Of a stretch of DNA of 6,929 nt, positions 813-6,929 are shown in pieces. Both the position numbers and the translations under genes were made by a program. Each line of letters opens with the position of its first letter. Within the stretch, counting starts at the first letter, position 1. Under the pieces are notes generated by a model. The model was not told where the DNA came from and ran no database searches. It saw only the letters and a program-made list of their open reading frames with translations. Source of the DNA: Candidatus Poribacteria bacterium (lineage in GTDB: Bacteria > Abyssobacteria > SURF-5); the NCBI GenBank assembly GCA_016215705.1, contig JACRIR010000225.1, positions 1 through 6,929 of the forward strand, given 5' to 3'.

Positions 813-855
813 GGGAAATGGGGGACACGATGGGGCATCATGTCCCCCATTTCCC
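813..855. repeat. 43-nt REP-like palindrome, copy A
   Basis: Two 21-nt arms (813-833 and 835-855) flank a single central base (834). Nineteen of 21 positions pair; the exceptions are 828/840 and 833/835 next to the centre. The arm core is GGGGACACGATG and its partner is GCATCATGTCCCC. Length and architecture are identical to the two perfect palindromes at 4874-4916 and 4971-5013, while the outer seven base pairs differ and remain paired. No T-run follows on either strand, so it is not a typical intrinsic terminator. By family knowledge it resembles REP elements mobilised by RAYT (Y1 transposase-like) enzymes, but no such gene is in the window. Confidence 0.85.
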
Positions 856-865
856 AAAGGCTTTT

Positions 866-890
866 GTCATTCCGACGGAGGCAGGGATTC
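866..890. repeat. Dispersed short repeat, copy 2 (inverted)
   Basis: The segment starts GTCATTCCGACGGAGGCAGG and ends GATTC. It is a degenerate match to the reverse complement of 11-36, lying just past the palindrome at 813-855. Only the flanks match well, so the relationship is tentative. Confidence 0.4.
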
Positions 891-998
891 AGTGAGGAGG
901 CGAAGGGCGAAAGAGCAAAGACGAAAGGGGTGTGCGCGGGAGCGTCGCCAAATCAATGGTACGTTATTTAGGCAGCGCAGTACTGGTTCCCTGGTTGA

Positions 999-1014
999 CC
1001 GCTTGAAAAAGCGG
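999..1014 (+). other. Small GAAA-capped hairpin
   Basis: CCGCTT (999-1004) pairs with AAGCGG (1009-1014) around a GAAA tetraloop. It lies about 45 nt upstream of the proposed dnaJ promoter. There is no following T-run, so it is not a typical terminator, and its role is unknown. A six-pair stem can occur by chance. Confidence 0.35.
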
Positions 1015-1059
1015 CCTTGTTCGGGTGCTGCGAGGGTCATTTAAGTCGTGCGCGCGGAT

Positions 1060-1089
1060 TCGACAAAGGGTGTGCGCCTATGCTATATT
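1060..1089 (+). promoter_or_regulatory. Sigma-70-type promoter for dnaJ leader
   Basis: TCGACA (1060-1065) matches the -35 consensus TTGACA at five of six bases. TATATT (1084-1089) matches TATAAT at five of six, and the spacer is 18 nt. A TG at 1081-1082 gives an extended -10 (TGC-TATATT). The start point would be near 1096, leaving a leader of about 175 nt before the dnaJ start codon. I see no sigma-32-like or CIRCE-type heat-shock element here. Confidence 0.55.
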
Positions 1090-1173
1090 TGGATAAAGGA
1101 GTTGTTCCTCAATCCCGTAGGCGACGATTTCTTCGAAGGCGCGGGGTAAGAAGAGCCCGAAGAAATTGTGCGG

Positions 1174-1263
1174 ATGAATTCGCACCTACAGGAGCATATG
1201 TCGGCTTGCCAAGTGGGGCAGATTATCTATACAGCCTTTTGCCCGCCATCGCCAGAGAGGTGA
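1174..1263 (+). CDS. Possible 29-residue leader ORF (weak)
   Basis: An ATG at 1174 opens a 29-codon frame reading [15 protein letters not shown] and then [14 protein letters not shown]. It stops at TGA 1261-1263, which is inside the dnaJ Shine-Dalgarno and 7 nt before the dnaJ TTG start. That arrangement would suit translational coupling. Against it, the ATG has no clear ribosome binding site, the inner ATG at 1198 has an AGGAG only three bases upstream, and the frame lies within the predicted leader stems. No family was recognised. The HxxxC spacing is faintly like zinc-finger anti-sigma domains, but the peptide is too short to support that. Confidence 0.15.
1257..1263 (+). promoter_or_regulatory. 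Ribosome binding site fixing the dnaJ TTG start
   Basis: GAGGTGA at 1257-1263 matches the 3' part of the consensus Shine-Dalgarno and lies seven bases before TTG at 1271. This, together with the J-domain beginning at the expected distance ([11 protein letters not shown]), decides the non-ATG start. Confidence 0.8.
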
Positions 1264-1270
1264 AACCGTC

Positions 1271-2413
1271 TTGCCGCCCAAGGACTACTATAAGACACTC
1301 GGTGTATCCAAGAGCGCTTCATCGGCAGAGATACGAAACGCTTACCGGAAACTGGCAAAGCAGCATCATCCCGACAGGAATCCGGGTAACAAATCGGCCG
1401 AAGAGAAATTCAAGCAGATACAGGAAGCCTATGATGTTCTTAGCGATGACGGCAAGAGGAAACAGTATGATCTGATGCGCGACGGAGGGTTCTTCGGCGC
1501 AGGGGCGGAAGGATTCGGGGGTTTCAGACCGCGGCCGGGCGGTGGCCCCGGGGCCGGGCCGGGTGGAGGCCAATTCAGGTACGAGGACTTATCCGGATTC
1601 GGCGACCTCGGGGATTTGTTCAGTTCCATTTTCGGATTTGGCGGCGGCGCCGGTCCACGCGGGGGCCGGGGTGTACATTTCGGCGCGATGAAGGGCGAGG
1701 ACACGAGCGCGGAAATAGAGATTCCGTTCGAGCAGGCTATTTCCGGCGGCAAGACCACATTTCAGATAACGCGCGAAGAAGACTGCTCTTATTGCGGAGG
1801 CGCGGGAACAGATCCGGCCTCGGGGACAAAGACGTGTCCGACATGCAATGGCCGCGGCAATGTGGCCACGAGCCAGGGGGCGTTTTCGATCAGCCGGCCG
1901 TGTCCCGGGTGCCTGGGCCGCGGGACGGTGGGCGGCAAGCCGTGCGCGCAGTGCGGCGGAAACGGTTCGGCTGCGCGCAGAAGCTCGATCTCGGTCAAGA
2001 TACCCGCCGGTGTGCGTGACGGCGCGAAAATACGAATCGCGGGACAAGGTCAGAAGGGCGCAGACGGCGGTCCGCCGGGGGACCTCATCCTGACGGTTCA
2101 CGTTCTCGAGCATTCGCGTTTCAAGCGCGAGGGCAGCGATATATTTGGCGAAGTCACCTTGAACCTTGCGCAGGCGGTGCTCGGGACGACTGTGAAGGTT
2201 GACACGATTGACGGTCCCGTGAATCTGCGTATTCCACCGGGAATTCAACCGGGGAAGAAACTGAGACTCAAGGGGAAGGGCGTCAAGAAGGTGACTGGCA
2301 CGGGCAGGGGTGACCATATCGTGCGGGTGAACATTCAGATTCCGGATTCATTGAGCGAATCGGAGAAGGAAGCGTTCGGGAAATTTGTGGAGGCGGCGAA
2401 GTTGAGCCGGTGA
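1271..2413 (+). CDS. dnaJ: Molecular chaperone DnaJ (type I Hsp40)
   Basis: This is a co-chaperone that delivers unfolded clients to DnaK and stimulates its ATPase; it is cytosolic. All type I domains are present in order. The J-domain (about 5-70) has DYYKTLGV and the essential HPD at 33-35. A glycine/phenylalanine-rich linker (about 72-133) contains a [11 protein letters not shown] segment. The zinc-binding region (about 172-232) has four complete CxxCxGxG repeats: [24 protein letters not shown] and CAQCGGNG. The two substrate-binding C-terminal beta domains (about 238-360) include GDLILTVHV and [20 protein letters not shown]. The 380 residues are close to the usual length (about 375-385). 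Translation starts at TTG with a good Shine-Dalgarno. dnaK and grpE are not adjacent, so it is a solitary locus; whether another dnaJ sits with them elsewhere cannot be seen. Expression probably comes from the promoter at 1060-1089 through a structured leader. Confidence 0.92.
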
Positions 2414-2476
2414 TTGGAAAAGGGGCCGACAGGCAATGATGAATGATGAATGCGGAATGGAACCGCCGATGAACTC

Positions 2477-2572
2477 AGCGCGGCGCAGCCGCAACCAAAA
2501 CCGAAGAAAAAAAAGAAACAGGCAATCCGCAGATTTCGCAGATTTGCCTAGCGCGGCGCAGCCGCAACCAAA
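2477..2572. repeat. 23-nt direct repeat pair
   Basis: An identical 23-nt segment, beginning AGCGCGGCGCAGCCGCAACC and ending AAA, occurs at 2477-2499 and again at 2550-2572, 73 nt apart. The sequence between the copies is A-rich and includes the first GATTT cluster. Exact identity suggests recent duplication or a mobile short element. It is not part of any gene. Confidence 0.9.
2528..2548. repeat. CGCAGATTT tandem pair
   Basis: CGCAGATTT occurs twice in tandem (2528-2536 and 2537-2545). GGCAA at 2521-2525 and TTGCC at 2544-2548 form a short inverted repeat around it. It is the first of four GATT-type clusters in this spacer. Confidence 0.7.
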
Positions 2573-2594
2573 CAAAAGAAAGAGCGTTGGGAAT

Positions 2595-2619
2595 CCCGCG
2601 AAGCGTGGGACTTCGCGGG
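2595..2619. repeat. CCCGCGAAG hairpin element, copy 1
   Basis: CCCGCGAAG (2595-2603) pairs perfectly with CTTCGCGGG (2611-2619) around a 7-nt loop. A related shorter element lies at 4571-4593, where AATCCCGCGA, GGGACTTCG and the same order recur. No T-run follows, so it is probably a dispersed repeat rather than a terminator. Confidence 0.7.
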
Positions 2620-2630
2620 GCTCAGCCTAC

Positions 2631-2657
2631 GGATTTCACTGATTTCACGGATTCGGG
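2631..2657. repeat. GATTTCAC repeat cluster
   Basis: GATTTCAC occurs at 2632-2639 and 2641-2648 and is followed by a diverged GGATTC unit at 2650-2655. The spacing of about 9 nt matches the other GATT clusters in this spacer. Confidence 0.7.
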
Positions 2658-2700
2658 GAGAAGAAGAAGAAGAAGAAACAAAAGAGGCATTCTTAGCCAC

Positions 2701-2726
2701 GGATTCACGCGGATTAACACGGATTT
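2701..2726. repeat. GGATT units at exact 10-nt spacing
   Basis: GGATT begins at 2701, 2711 and 2721 (GGATTCACGC, GGATTAACAC, GGATTTGGGA). The 10-nt period is close to one helical turn of DNA. There is no coding potential. Confidence 0.8.
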
Positions 2727-2870
2727 GGGAGAAAAAGAAAAGAGAATTGCGACAAGAATTCGTGATCCTGATATTGAGTAGTACAGATTCAGGGAAGAAG
2801 AAAGAAAAGCAAAAGAGTTAGATCGCGAATGACACGATTTTTGTGAATTACACGAATAAAGAAGTTCCCT

Positions 2871-2900
2871 GATTTAGACAGATTTACACAGATTTCAGGG
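2871..2900. repeat. GATTT units at exact 10-nt spacing
   Basis: GATTT begins at 2871, 2881 and 2891 (GATTTAGACA, GATTTACACA, GATTTCAGGG). The array is bracketed by TCCCTGA (2866-2872) and TCAGGGA (2895-2901), an inverted repeat that could form a stem around it. Confidence 0.8.
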
Positions 2901-3060
2901 AAAATAAGAAGAAATCACGACGGCGATTCAAGATTTCGAACATGAGTAGTACAGCGCAGAGAAGAGAAAATCACGAGGCAAAGTCAAGAATTTGACGGTG
3001 AGCAATTCAGTTAGACCTCTGCCGTGAACCGCTCGTATAAGGAGCAAGAAACACTAAGCT

Positions 3061-3714
3061 ATGCTGATTGATATGCTCGTTCTGTACATTATTCTTCTTT
3101 TCTCGTGTTGTGTCCATGAGGCGGCGCATGCGTGGACGGCCTACATGTGCGGGGACGACACCGCCAAACTTCAGGGTCGCATTACGCTGAATCCCATACC
3201 GCACATCGATCCGATCGGCACAATTGCGTTTCCGCTGCTAGCCATAGTGACCGGCACGATTTCGGGAGGCAGGTCGTTTCTGTTTGGGTGGGCGAAGCCG
3301 GTTCCCGTTAACCCGAACCGGTTCAATAATTATCGACGCGACGACATCATCGTTTCACTTTCCGGCATAGTAAGCAATCTTTTGCTCGCGCTCATTGCTG
3401 CGACGACGCTGAGGTCATGGTATGTGTTTGGCGGGTTTTTGTTTTCGAATTCTCTTGTGGATGTAATTCGCTACTTCATGTACATCAATGTCGTGCTGGG
3501 GGTATTCAATCTTGTGCCTATTCCGCCGCTCGACGGGTCCCGCGTGTTGTACCACTATCTCCCAATGCGCGCCGCGTGGCAGTTTCGGAAGCTGGAACAG
3601 TATGGCTTTGTTATACTTATAGCGTTTCTCTACACAGGCATTTTCAGTTCCATTATTTGGTTGCCGTTGCAGATTTTCGCCTATATTGCCGGACCGTTTG
3701 CGGGTTTCAGATAG
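3061..3714 (+). CDS. Membrane M50 (site-2 protease type) metalloprotease
   Basis: This is a small intramembrane zinc metalloprotease of the S2P/M50 class, which cleaves membrane-embedded substrates. Its substrate is unknown. The protein has 217 residues with about five to six hydrophobic segments (roughly 3-18, 52-68, 95-118, 134-155 and 181-212). The zinc motif HEAAH is at 19-23, directly after the first membrane segment. The second motif, NLVPIPPLDGSR (150-161), carries the aspartate (D158) expected as third metal ligand. GWAKPVPVNP (76-85) is typical of the short bacterial S2P-M50-like subfamily that lacks PDZ domains. An in-frame TAA just upstream (3055-3057) makes the first ATG the earliest possible start. 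However, the best Shine-Dalgarno, AAGGAG (3039-3044), lies 16 nt away, which is long; a start at Met5 (3073) would be further still. It stands alone between two repeat-filled spacers. Confidence 0.9.
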   Translation: MLIDMLVLYIILLFSCCVHEAAHAWTAYMCGDDTAKLQGRITLNPIPHIDPIGTIAFPLLAIVTGTISGGRSFLFGWAKPVPVNPNRFNNYRRDDIIVSLSGIVSNLLLALIAATTLRSWYVFGGFLFSNSLVDVIRYFMYINVVLGVFNLVPIPPLDGSRVLYHYLPMRAAWQFRKLEQYGFVILIAFLYTGIFSSIIWLPLQIFAYIAGPFAGFR

Positions 3715-4017
3715 GTAGTGTCGGTGTCGGAAGAGCAGGCCCCTGACTTCGGGACTCATGGACGACATGGACGGGATGGAGAGGATGGGGAAGGGGGATT
3801 TACTTCTTTTGTGGGGCCGAATTCATGCGGGATGGACAGGATGGAGTGTCCGTTTCAAATGAGCAGGCCCGATTTTGGGTGGGTGAATGTATCTGTCTCC
3901 ATCAAGGAATTCAGCGATTTCCCTCTGTGACAATATTTCAGGAAAGGGGAAGCGCGGCAAAAGAAGCTGTCTCAATCGAGAAATTAGGCAATTTGTTGCT
4001 GTGACTGCCTGAAGCTC
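3715..4017. other. Non-coding spacer with degenerate repeats
   Basis: No gene is supported. Besides the TGGAC units listed separately, an imperfect direct repeat of about 30 bp occurs twice, at about 3719-3753 and 3846-3878. Both copies start GTGTC and share the exact core GAGCAGGCCC (3733-3742 and 3861-3870). No terminator was found behind the protease gene. The right half (about 3880-4017) has no recognisable repeat. Confidence 0.6.
3759..3850. repeat. TGGAC array 3 (degenerate, two clusters)
   Basis: Units at 3759 (TGGACGACA), 3768 (TGGACGGGA) and 3777 (TGGAGAGGA), then at 3833 (TGGACAGGA) and 3842 (TGGAGTGTC), keep the 9-nt period of the arrays at 477-521 and 636-691. Finding the same unit about 3 kb away shows it is a dispersed element and not a single local slippage event. 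Confidence 0.7.
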
Positions 4018-4046
4018 TTTACATGAAATGAGGTTGGTGACATAAT
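4018..4046 (+). promoter_or_regulatory. Sigma-70-type promoter of the Rrf2 regulator
   Basis: TTTACA (4018-4023) and CATAAT (4041-4046) each match consensus at five of six bases and are separated by exactly 17 nt. The predicted start is near 4053, giving an untranslated region of about 50 nt. An imperfect inverted pair GTGAC/GTTAC (4038-4042 and 4054-4058) brackets the -10 and start region. It could be an autoregulatory operator, as is common for Rrf2 proteins, but it does not match the IscR type 1 consensus well enough to call. Confidence 0.6.
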
Positions 4047-4103
4047 TATTGGAGTTACGGGTCTTACGGGGATTGGCACATAGGGTCATAGAGGGACGGA
4101 AAG

Positions 4104-4553
4104 ATGCAGATAACTCGCGCTTCCGAATATGCGATTCGGGGAGTTCTCGATCTTTGCATGCAGCCGAAGGGGGCGGTATGTCTATTGAACGAGATTTCCG
4201 AGCGCCAGAATGTGCCCCCCAGTTTTCTGTCGAAGATATTCCAGAATCTGGCGAGGGCCGGTATCGTTAGTTCATCGCGTGGCACAGGCGGGGGATTCAC
4301 GCTGTTAAAGCCGCCGGAAGACATCAATCTTCTCGATGTGCTGGAGGCAATAGAGGGTCAGATCGAGATGAATGTTTGTCTTGGCAACGGTGATGTATGC
4401 GGGAACCGATCTGTCTGCCCGGTTCACGACGTATGGCGCGAGGCTCAGGATCAATTGTTTGCAACGCTGAGAAAGCAGAGTTTCGCTCAGCTTGCGGAAG
4501 CGAGCCGAAGACGGCGTGAAGAGGCGGCCAGGGAGCCACAGGCGAGCGACTAA
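4104..4553 (+). CDS. Rrf2-family Fe-S cluster transcriptional regulator
   Basis: This is a DNA-binding regulator of the Rrf2 family (IscR, NsrR, RsrR relatives); members sense iron-sulfur status, nitric oxide or redox state. The protein has 149 residues. The N-terminal winged helix (about 1-70) shows the family hallmarks: MQITRASEYAIRGVLDL at the start, the recognition helix around VPPSFLSKIFQNLARAGIV (37-55), and the wing SSRGTGGGFTLLKPPEDI (57-74). The dimerisation helix follows (INLLDVLEAIEG). The cluster ligands are C92, C99 and C105, with H108 nearby, spaced much as in IscR (92, 98, 104, 107). The charged C-terminal tail is unremarkable. AGGGA lies seven bases before the ATG. It is not next to isc, suf, nsr or hcp genes, so its targets and cofactor type cannot be told. 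It is probably monocistronic, from the promoter at 4018-4046 to the terminator at 4705-4739. Confidence 0.93.
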   Translation: MQITRASEYAIRGVLDLCMQPKGAVCLLNEISERQNVPPSFLSKIFQNLARAGIVSSSRGTGGGFTLLKPPEDINLLDVLEAIEGQIEMNVCLGNGDVCGNRSVCPVHDVWREAQDQLFATLRKQSFAQLAEASRRRREEAAREPQASD

Positions 4554-4570
4554 GGAGAGCGGAAAGGAAC

Positions 4571-4593
4571 AATCCCGCGAGGCGGGACTTCGG
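4571..4593. repeat. CCCGC hairpin element, copy 2
   Basis: TCCCGC (4573-4578) pairs with GCGGGA (4582-4587) around a three-base loop, followed by CTTCGG. Base order matches the element at 2591-2615 with a few bases deleted, so the two are probably copies of one dispersed repeat. Confidence 0.6.
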
Positions 4594-4704
4594 AAGCCTC
4601 AGGGCACAAGGCGAAAGGGAAAGAACTGAGAAGAAGATTTTTTTTGTTTCCAAGCTTCGCTTTTCTTCCTGAAATAGTGTATTGACAAACGGTTTTGAGA
4701 GGAT

Positions 4705-4739
4705 AGGGACAGACCCTTGAGAGGTTTGTCTCTTTTTTT
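4705..4739 (+). terminator. Intrinsic terminator downstream of the Rrf2 gene
   Basis: An 11-pair stem joins 4705-4715 (AGGGACAGACC) to 4723-4733 (GGTTTGTCTCT) with two G-U pairs and a 7-nt loop. It runs straight into seven consecutive T residues (4733-4739). It sits about 150 nt after the regulator's stop codon on the same strand. Upstream, GACAAAC (4684-4690) can pair with GTTTGTC (4724-4730), which would disrupt this stem. The two left arms look like a tandem duplication (GACAAACGGTTTTGAGAGG and GACAGACCCTTGAGAGG). Confidence 0.75.
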
Positions 4740-4794
4740 GTCCCTAAGAACTCATTTTCAAAAATACGATCATGTATCCTCGCAATCTTCGGAA

Positions 4795-4815
4795 GGGCGA
4801 CCCGCCGGGTCGCCC
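4795..4815. repeat. GGGCGACCC hairpin
   Basis: GGGCGACCCG (4795-4804) is the exact inverse of CGGGTCGCCC (4806-4815) around one central base, giving a 9-pair stem with a three-base loop. The flanking CCTACAG gives the form I recall as a common intergenic repeat in environmental bacteria. It is not followed by a T-run. Confidence 0.75.
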
Positions 4816-4873
4816 CTACAGAATACGTCACAGGATTCAGGAAACCGACTGCAAAAGACTAATGTCGGTTTTG

Positions 4874-4916
4874 CTTAATTCGGGGACACCATGCAGCATG
4901 GTGTCCCCGAATTAAG
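4874..4916. repeat. 43-nt REP-like palindrome, copy B (perfect)
   Basis: Two 21-nt arms (4874-4894 and 4896-4916) pair at all 21 positions around a single A (4895). The left arm begins CTTAATTC and continues GGGGACACCATGC. It shares the inner core with copies A and C, but the ninth core base is C here (paired with G), where A and C have G (paired with C in copy C). The outer arm differs too but still pairs. A partial right arm, GCATGGTGTCCC, is repeated just downstream at 4923-4934. Confidence 0.93.
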
Positions 4917-4970
4917 GGCTCTGCATGGTGTCCCACAGGAATCACGAAACGCGCTACCTAAGAAAGCGGT

Positions 4971-5013
4971 GCTTATTCGGGGACACGATGCGGCATCGTG
5001 TCCCCGAATAAGC
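4971..5013. repeat. 43-nt REP-like palindrome, copy C (perfect)
   Basis: Two 21-nt arms (4971-4991 and 4993-5013) pair at all 21 positions around a single G (4992). The left arm begins GCTTATTC and continues GGGGACACGATGC. Its centre is 97 nt from that of copy B. It lies about 50 bp beyond the mnmG stop codon and would form a strong hairpin in an mnmG read-through transcript. No T-run follows on the minus strand. Confidence 0.93.
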
Positions 5014-5015
5014 GC

Positions 5016-5055
5016 CCCCGAATAAGCGCCACGCGGCATGACTCGCCCGAATAAA
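5016..5055. repeat. Degenerate half-copies of palindrome C
   Basis: CCCCGAATAAGCG at 5016-5028 exactly repeats 5002-5014, the end of copy C, 14 nt further on. GCGGCAT (5033-5039) and CCCGAATAA (5046-5054) repeat 4990-4996 and 5003-5011, both at an offset of exactly 43 nt. They look like a decayed right half of another palindrome placed one unit length away. Confidence 0.7.
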
Positions 5056-5060
5056 GGGTT

Positions 5061-6929
5061 CTATTTTTTCAGGTAGATCATGATGATGGAGATGTCGGAA
5101 GGTCTTACGCCCGTGATTCGAGAGGCCTGGCCCAGCGTAAGGGGCCGAAAGCGGGCGAGTTTTTCGCGGCCTTCGTTCGAGAGGCTGTGAATGCGGGTGT
5201 AGTCGATATCATGGGGAATGAGTGTCGCCTCGAGTCTTTCAATTCTTTCTATCTGAGCGAGTTGGCGACGGATGTATCCTTCGTACTTGATCTCGATCTG
5301 AACCTGCTCGGAGACGGAAGCTTCCGGCTCAGCGAGTCCGGCTATCGCGTATACTTCCGCGGCATCGAGCTCGGGACGGCGCAGCAACTGCTCGAGCGTT
5401 GTTCCGTCTTTCACATCGCCCGTTCCACGTTCGCGGAGCAAGCGGTTGACTGATTCCGACGGCGGGACTTTGCAGTTTCGGAGCCTGTTCAACTCTTCCC
5501 CGATGCGTTCGCGTTTTCTCTCGAGCGTCGAGAAAGCGGACTCGTCCACGAGTCCGAGCTTATATCCGACGGGCATCAGCCGCAGGTCGGCGTTGTCCTG
5601 TCGGAGCAAGAGGCGATATTCCGCCCGCGCCGTGAACATGCGATATGGTTCTCTTATTTCTCGAGTGACGAGGTCGTCGAGAAGCACTCCGATATAGGCC
5701 TGAGAGCGTGAAAGAACGAGCGGCGGTTCGGCCCTGAGCTTGAGCGCCGCATTTATCCCCGCCATCAAGCCCTGAGCGGCGGCTTCCTCGTATCCGGACG
5801 TCCCGTTTATCTGACCCGCGAAATACAAGTTCTCGACTTGTTTCGTCTCCATTGTCGGTTTTATCTGCGAGGGTGGGGCGAAGTCGTACTCGATTGCGTA
5901 CCCGTACCGCATGATCTCGGCATGCTCTAGTCCGCGGATCGTCCGGAGGAATTCGAGTTGGACGTCCTCGGGGAGGCTGCTGGAGATTCCATTGCAGTAG
6001 ATCTCGTCGGTTTCGAGGCCCTCGGGCTCGAGGAAAATCTGATGTCTTTCTTTGCTTGCGAATTTGACGACTTTGTCCTCGATAGAGGGGCAGTAGCGAG
6101 GCCCGATCCCGCTGATTCTGCCGGAATAAAGCGGTGAGCGGTCGAGATTCTTGCGGATTACCTCGTGCGTTTTTTCATTTGTGTACCCGAGATAGCATGG
6201 GACTTGTTCGCGGTCGATCTGCCGGGTCGAGAAAGAAAACGGCGGAGGAGGGACGTCGCCCGGCTGTTCGAGGAAGGCAGAAAGGTCCACGGTGTTTTTG
6301 TTGATCCGGGGCGGCGTGCCCGTCTTGAGACGCCCGAGATCGAAGCCCGCGTGTCTTAATCCGTCGGAGAGCGACCTGGCGGAGAACTCGCCGGCCCTTC
6401 CCGCTTCATGCTGCGAAAGGCCGATATGAATCAACCCGCGCAGGAACGTGCCGGTTGTGATGATGACGGCGCGGCCCTCGAACTTAGACTGTGTCTGAGT
6501 GACAACCGAGGTAATGCGACCATCCTGAACGCAGACGTTCTCGACGAGCGCCTGCTTGAGATCGAGGTTGGCGGCCTCTTCGAGGAGATGCTTCAACTTG
6601 AGCTGGTATGCTTTCTTGTCGGCCTGAGCGCGAGGGGCCCGCACTGCCGGACCTTTGCTTCGATTGAGCATGCGAAACTGGATGCCGGTCGCGTCGGTAA
6701 CCTTTCCCATCACGCCGCCGAGCGCATCGATCTCGCGAACGAGATGTCCTTTCGCCAGACCGCCGATAGCGGGGTTGCACGACATCTGCCCAATCGTGTC
6801 GAGCGAGATGGTGAGCAGTAGCGTTTCGCAGCCCATCCGGGCAGTTGCGAGGGCGGCCTCGCAGCCGGCGTGGCCTGCGCCGACGACGATTACGTCATAT
6901 TTCTTGGGATAGATGCGCATACCTTCCAT
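5061..6929 (-). CDS. mnmG: tRNA uridine-5-carboxymethylaminomethyl modification enzyme MnmG (GidA)
   Basis: This FAD-dependent enzyme, with its GTPase partner MnmE, installs the (carboxymethyl)aminomethyl group on wobble U34 of certain tRNAs. It is cytosolic and broadly conserved. The 622 residues align essentially end to end with the known family (E. coli about 629). The FAD-binding Rossmann motif GAGHAG is at 17-22, followed by QMSCNPAIGGLAKGHLVRE (48-66) and KGPAVRAPRAQAD (92-104). GRLKTGTPPRI (199-209) precedes GPRYCPSIEDK (276-286), whose cysteine (C280) corresponds to the functionally important one in E. coli. YFAGQINGTSGYEEAAAQG (369-387) and the helical C-terminal MnmE/tRNA-binding region (about 545-620, KYEGYIRRQ, GQASRITGV) complete it. 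It stops at TAG (5061-5063 read in reverse). The first ATG abuts the window edge; Met4 (6918-6920) is an alternative start and a longer N-terminus cannot be excluded. MnmE is not in view. Confidence 0.97.
   Translation of the reverse strand: MEGMRIYPKKYDVIVVGAGHAGCEAALATARMGCETLLLTISLDTIGQMSCNPAIGGLAKGHLVREIDALGGVMGKVTDATGIQFRMLNRSKGPAVRAPRAQADKKAYQLKLKHLLEEAANLDLKQALVENVCVQDGRITSVVTQTQSKFEGRAVIITTGTFLRGLIHIGLSQHEAGRAGEFSARSLSDGLRHAGFDLGRLKTGTPPRINKNTVDLSAFLEQPGDVPPPPFSFSTRQIDREQVPCYLGYTNEKTHEVIRKNLDRSPLYSGRISGIGPRYCPSIEDKVVKFASKERHQIFLEPEGLETDEIYCNGISSSLPEDVQLEFLRTIRGLEHAEIMRYGYAIEYDFAPPSQIKPTMETKQVENLYFAGQINGTSGYEEAAAQGLMAGINAALKLRAEPPLVLSRSQAYIGVLLDDLVTREIREPYRMFTARAEYRLLLRQDNADLRLMPVGYKLGLVDESAFSTLERKRERIGEELNRLRNCKVPPSESVNRLLRERGTGDVKDGTTLEQLLRRPELDAAEVYAIAGLAEPEASVSEQVQIEIKYEGYIRRQLAQIERIERLEATLIPHDIDYTRIHSLSNEGREKLARFRPLTLGQASRITGVRPSDISIIMIYLKK

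Follow-up and report, generated by a model that had tools for sequence, protein, structure and literature searches.

Dispersed 43-nt palindromes in a Candidatus Poribacteria genome are probably fused ends of TIRYT transposons

The 6,929-nt stretch of DNA analysed here (the window) is an entire contig (C167) of a Candidatus Poribacteria bacterium, from an assembly of 5.47 Mb that is 92% complete in 270 contigs. It contains three 43-nt palindromes (copies A, B and C), each made of two inverted halves around one central base. We consider these palindromes to be, most likely, non-autonomous mobile elements in which two ends of a TIRYT, a transposon with a Y1 transposase gene, have become fused with the gene removed. 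The features of the window on which the analysis draws are the following.

813..855, no strand: palindrome copy A; arms GGGAAATG/CATTTCCC, core GGGGACACGATGGGGCATCATGTCCCC at 821-847; 19 of 21 positions paired
1271..2413, + strand: dnaJ gene, the first clear gene downstream of copy A
4104..4553, + strand: Rrf2-family regulator gene, left flank of the convergent gap with copies B and C
4874..4916, no strand: palindrome copy B; arms CTTAATTC/GAATTAAG, core at 4882-4908, C-subfamily GGGGACACCATGC; 21 of 21 positions paired
4921..4934, - strand: half-palindrome remnant CTGCATGGTGTCCC, adjoining copy B
4971..5013, no strand: palindrome copy C; arms GCTTATTC/GAATAAGC, core at 4979-5005, G-subfamily GGGGACACGATGC; 21 of 21 positions paired
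5016..5054, - strand: degenerate remnants CCCCGAATAAGCGCC and GCGGCATGACTCGCCCGAATAA, adjoining copy C
5061..6929, - strand: mnmG/gidA gene (TIGR00136, 895 bits), right flank of the convergent gap with copies B and C

Copy A lies upstream of dnaJ, and copy C ends 47 nt past the mnmG stop codon. The positions and pairing reported for the three copies in the initial annotation were exact when recounted (19, 21 and 21 of 21), the unpaired spots of copy A being arm positions 16 and 21. Its statement that the outer base pairs vary and still remain paired was also borne out, except that the stretch comprises eight bases and not seven: the outer 8 bases are perfect reverse complements within each copy and differ among A, B and C. 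No other centre in the window reached a pairing of at least 15/21, and none at 19/21 appeared in 20 mononucleotide shuffles of it. When folded as single-stranded DNA, copies A, B and C each gave one hairpin, of -19.5, -22.6 and -24.0 kcal/mol (z of -6.2, -11.6 and -10.1 against dinucleotide shuffles). A palindrome that follows the same plan with another tag, GAAAATAGGGACAGACCC...GGGTCTGTCCCTATTTTC, is present at L036:3693 and L087:3222; a degenerate relative of it is found at 4705-4745 of the window, with a T-run after it and a terminator-like score.

The palindromes form a large family in this genome. A strict pattern for the core had 259 forward and 250 reverse matches, and a relaxed one had 279 per strand, corresponding to about 279 places in the 5.47 Mb, while the reversed controls of both yielded 0. 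The case in which only the copies of the window would exist, named in the initial annotation as speaking against a dispersed family, is thus excluded by some 280 copies. None of 97 genomes other than this one matched the core pattern, and neither did two genomes of the same family, the nearest relatives searched; the palindromes had no match in Rfam. For arm and placement statistics we used 825 kb of unmasked sequence of the same genome, where, of the 95 strongest inverted repeats with a short loop, 57 hold the GGGGACA block of the core. There, 63 of 88 copies were outside open reading frames (ORFs) against 13.4% expected, about 87% of the sequence being in ORFs of 330 nt or more; these fractions are approximate because genes were called by a simple longest-ORF procedure. 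The tabulation of locations, which the initial annotation had suggested as a check, disclosed an enrichment in convergent gaps (17/55 vs 66/393, p 0.006) and a depletion in divergent ones (3/55 vs 65/393, p 0.017), besides the mostly extragenic placement.

This distribution, together with the high stability of the hairpins, would suit bidirectional transcription terminators or other RNA hairpins selected for host function, and at one site in Syntrophales the palindrome is found in the place that a terminator-like hairpin takes in sister genomes. However, a T-tract followed the 43-mer at 7 of 87 copies, about the background (5.6% of positions), and directly followed the core at only 26 of 87. 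Moreover, the block GGGGACAC is fixed in sequence and common to several phyla, and many Syntrophales copies are inside ORFs, so that we regard a terminator function as improbable.

Alignment of the copies showed a constant build, namely an 8-nt AT-rich arm, GGGGACAC, a short tag (CATGC, GATGC or CTTGC, according to the subfamily), the centre, and the inverse of these parts. Among 86 distinct copies, the arms were paired in 88-95% at positions 1-7 and in 79% at position 8, falling near background from position 10, and shuffled arms paired in 28-59% at the freely varying positions. There were 27 distinct perfect arms. At arm positions 1-8 we counted 212 double-change cells versus 38 one-sided, the cells being copies rather than independent events, whereas GGGGACAC positions had 0 double and 39 one-sided changes, a comparison in which double changes in the core are under-counted because the copies were gathered by core similarity. 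Core positions 9-10, which belong to the subfamily tag, also change as pairs (G-C to C-G, A-T to T-A). The palindrome thus consists of two zones, GGGGACAC being fixed in sequence and the arms in pairing only. The proposal that pairing and not sequence is conserved holds for the arms, whose differences are paired genome-wide. Covarying arms appear not to have been described before, a text search of PMC3733652 having given no mention of covariation or compensatory change.

A perfect dyad with a conserved GGGGACAC block could also be an operator-like site bound by a host protein of dyad symmetry. Nevertheless, the approximately 280 copies are mostly behind genes, their arms vary and still pair, they are present or absent between sister genomes, and they match transposon ends (see below), all of which makes an operator highly improbable. 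Another candidate was that the arms came from the target, by insertion into pre-existing AT palindromes. It was rejected, as the 825 kb contained neither arm+arm empty sites nor palindromes of such form, and the empty alleles of the shared Syntrophales site are without the arms.

TIRYTs (terminal-inverted-repeat-associated tyrosine transposases, of the Y1/HUH kind) are a sister group of the RAYT transposases. Their terminal repeats share the sequence GGGGWSAS and form repeat families in some species (PMC3733652). These elements were named in 2013, the question of whether they form their repeats being left open (PMC3733652), and they correspond to TnpAREP subclass 2.1 (PMC6006769). A GGGGWSAS-type block is present in every strict-pattern core as GGGGACAC, and the same genome has Y1 (PF01797) genes at three places, two on contig C28 and one on C225, with inverted ends of this type on both contigs. 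Of the two C28 genes, which are 97% alike, one is complete and lies between TTATTCCGGGGACATAATACC...GGTATTATGTCCCCGGAATAA; the second is truncated by the contig end and shares the right end. The C225 locus has ends GGGGTCAGGTCTTG, and its protein carries a DnaA-C helix-turn-helix (HTH) domain, an HTH domain being described for TnpAREP subclass 2.1. The C28 ends (GGGGACAT) fit only the first 7 of the 8 GGGGWSAS positions, and those of C225 (GGGGTCAG) fit 8/8. Neither set of own-genome ends (GGGGACATAATACC, GGGGTCAGGTCTTG) is identical to the palindrome, as both bear other tags. The closest TIRYT ends were found elsewhere and are 1 of 13 bases off the palindrome: GGGGACACCATAC and GGGGACACCTTAC, in other bacteria, differ by one base from palindrome cores.

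For a wider comparison we took 22 Y1 loci of the GGGGACA type whose inverted ends match; they come from this genome and from others. Their ends include GGGGACACCATAC (9 ends), GGGGACACCTTAC, GGGGACACAATAC and GGGGACATAATGC, and the palindromes carry GGGGACACCATGC, GGGGACACGATGC and GGGGACACCTTGC. Outside the GGGG, the two flanks of these TIRYTs were complementary over 6-7 nt, pairing in 15, 19, 20, 16, 16, 15 and 10 of the 22 loci at successive positions and then at background. At positions 1-6 of these AT-rich flanks, 101 of 132 were paired versus 54.6 after shuffling, a value attained in 0 of 5000 shuffles. Given the match of the ends and the complementarity of the flanks, the palindrome would be the remainder of a TIRYT with the interior removed, that is, arm, GGGGACAC and tag, twice and back to back.

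The origin first proposed was a REP family spread by RAYT transposases. High copy number, extragenic position, bias to 3' ends and convergent gaps, hairpin structure and the Y1 genes of the genome would all suit a classical GTAG-type REP/REPIN family, but of the GTAG/GTRG tetranucleotide that RAYT REPs have 5' of the hairpin, GTAG was within 14 nt of only 1 of 88 copies, the element is a perfect one-base-centre palindrome with GGGGACAC, and its ends match those of TIRYT and not of RAYT elements. That proposal thus stands with regard to the large extragenic family, the arm covariation and the Y1/HUH kinship, and not with regard to GTAG, which is absent, or to the ends, which are of TIRYT type. 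A Y1/RAYT gene flanked by the same palindrome, which had been put forward as a test, was not found in the genome or in the relatives searched. We deem a REP family in the strict sense as improbable as a terminator, and this REP-like family is to be grouped by its architecture with the repeats that end TIRYTs, not with the GTAG REPs of RAYTs.

REPINs and BIMEs, too, are short non-autonomous extragenic palindromes for which a Y1/HUH protein, their RAYT, provides mobility in trans (PMC3116915, PMC8266576), but the palindromes described here have no GTAG guide and no bulge, and are single hairpins rather than REP pairs with a spacer. TIRYTs, or TIRtrons, have the GGGGWSAS block at the ends of Y1 transposase elements, ends that also spread as independent repeats, some of them self-complementary (PMC3733652; PMC6006769). 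In our case, in contrast, two ends are fused into a perfect palindrome of 43 nt, present about 280 times, the arms outside the GGGG covary freely, and the exact cognate transposase was not found. Miniature inverted-repeat transposable elements are likewise internally deleted transposons reduced to two ends, although here the transposase is Y1 and not DDE and no target-site duplication was seen.

Outside this genome, the same 27-nt core was present in Syntrophales and other 'Deltaproteobacteria' metagenome-assembled genomes (MAGs), in Elusimicrobia and in one Acidobacteriota MAG, with 1 to 77 forward matches per genome, and ten IMG/VR contigs carry it. In contigs L045-L054 of IMG/VR, with phage-type genes by eye, palindromes lie in gaps between genes, plus a palindrome family GGGGACAGATTTCAAATCTGTCCCC; the genome's own TIRYT, used as a query against viral contigs, gave nothing. 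In 21 genomes of one family we compared six sites at which the palindrome has arms. At one of them, between two genes that by eye are tatB- and tatC-like, a 41-nt unit (7 + 27 + 7) directly follows a stop codon in six genomes, one copy being decayed, and is absent from other genomes, where the flanks are joined directly. No target duplication was visible at this site, and the arms (GCGTTAT/ATAACGC, GCATTAT/ATAATGC or GCATTAC/GTAATGC) are missing from the empty alleles. Presence and absence were seen at further sites too. Some Syntrophales palindromes (L241-L247) occupy the position of a terminator-like hairpin of sister genomes, before the same T-run. A CTTG core variant was often within long ORFs in Syntrophales and Deltaproteobacteria MAGs (L104, L106, L115, L126, L135 and others): 42 of 50 such copies were in ORFs of at least 600 nt, about half of these in frame as GDTLxQGVP, and the core at L106:2044 resembles an in-frame protein insertion because sister species have no core there. 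Rickettsia palindromic elements are also palindromes in frame inside ORFs, but differ in sequence and hosts, and the copies in the genome of the window are mainly extragenic.

Between two near-identical genomes, 3 differences were counted in 347 bases at the shared 41-nt insertion, and two of them together make up one base pair of the arms. Such an in situ concerted change requires a second process besides the spread of elements with paired arms, and it bears on an alternative that concerns the covariation only and is compatible with a TIRYT origin: arm pairing may be kept by template-switch (quasipalindrome) correction during replication, with no need for pairing as such. This mechanism, in which one arm is copied onto the other, is known (PMC7202029, PMC8604942). 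On the other hand, arm complementarity exists also at TIRYT ends, where local hairpin correction is less likely because these are about 730-950 bp apart; one-sided changes are retained both in the arms and in the core; and the genome pair compared is very close and the only one of its kind. We therefore take template switching as a serious possibility, albeit not the likelier one, the data separating subfamily spread from in-place arm copying only in part.

In the mechanism that we favour, each half of the element (an AT-rich arm, about 8 nt long, followed by GGGGACAC as recognition block and by the tag of the subfamily) would fold with the other into a single-strand hairpin, and a TIRYT acting in trans would most likely recognise the sequence of GGGGACAC-tag and, in the arms, the pairing, moving or copying the unit mostly into gaps behind genes and without target-site duplication. 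Mobilisation in trans, single-strand chemistry and a pairing requirement during transposition are what we infer here, the hairpin processing being modelled on TnpAREP, which processes REPs as single-stranded DNA (PMC8266576). Arm pairing could be maintained in two ways, either by the spread of elements with paired arms, which fits the arm diversity of subfamilies and the pattern of intact elements, or by in-place copying between the arms, with which the paired change at the shared site agrees. Most of the arm diversity would be older subfamily diversity filtered by transposition.

Several points weigh against a fused TIRYT origin. Transposition itself is deduced from sequence and not observed; collection by core similarity under-counts paired changes there, and one core variant, GTGGACAC...GTGTCCAC, exists; and most Syntrophales copies are without complementary arms, a minority having 7-13 bp, so that arms are not universally needed. 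In addition, a TIRYT with the exact tag CATGC, GATGC or CTTGC was not found in the genome of the window, where its absence is unproven because the assembly is 92% complete in 270 contigs, nor in the relatives searched; in the phylum to which the Syntrophales relatives belong, 395 genomes yielded near matches only.

Other repeats accompany the family. Short tandem repeats of the ATGGACNNN type occupy 477-523, 636-690 and 3750-3787 of the window, in two intergenic regions. A composite repeat about 200 nt long that includes CGGGCGCGATGAATCGCGCCCCTACAG is dispersed in the same genome (L038:9994, L031:80, L021:14861, L020:15616 and others) and is found both with and without the palindrome. A second repeated palindrome, GTAGGGGCACGGCGCGCCGTGCCCCTAC, with GTAG at its end, is at L029:19707, L035:14762, L056:6046, L061:1812, L076:10578 and L077:19382. 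A one-sided motif of AAGAAA type was beside the copies of the main family at only 18 of 87.

By analogy with the rolling-hairpin replication of other HUH elements, TIRYTs and the fused-end palindromes might even move via a hairpin intermediate in which one end templates the other. We consider this unlikely, but if it were true the ends would be equalised in each round while the arm sequence remained free, and it would be the chemistry of transposition, rather than selection by the host, that left its footprint in the covariation. With regard to the fused TIRYT ends, evolution has dissected the element into a block fixed in sequence and a block kept by pairing only, a split that intact TIRYT genes also show at their ends, and this yields a testable model of recognition, in which GGGGACAC-tag would be read by sequence and the arms by pairing.

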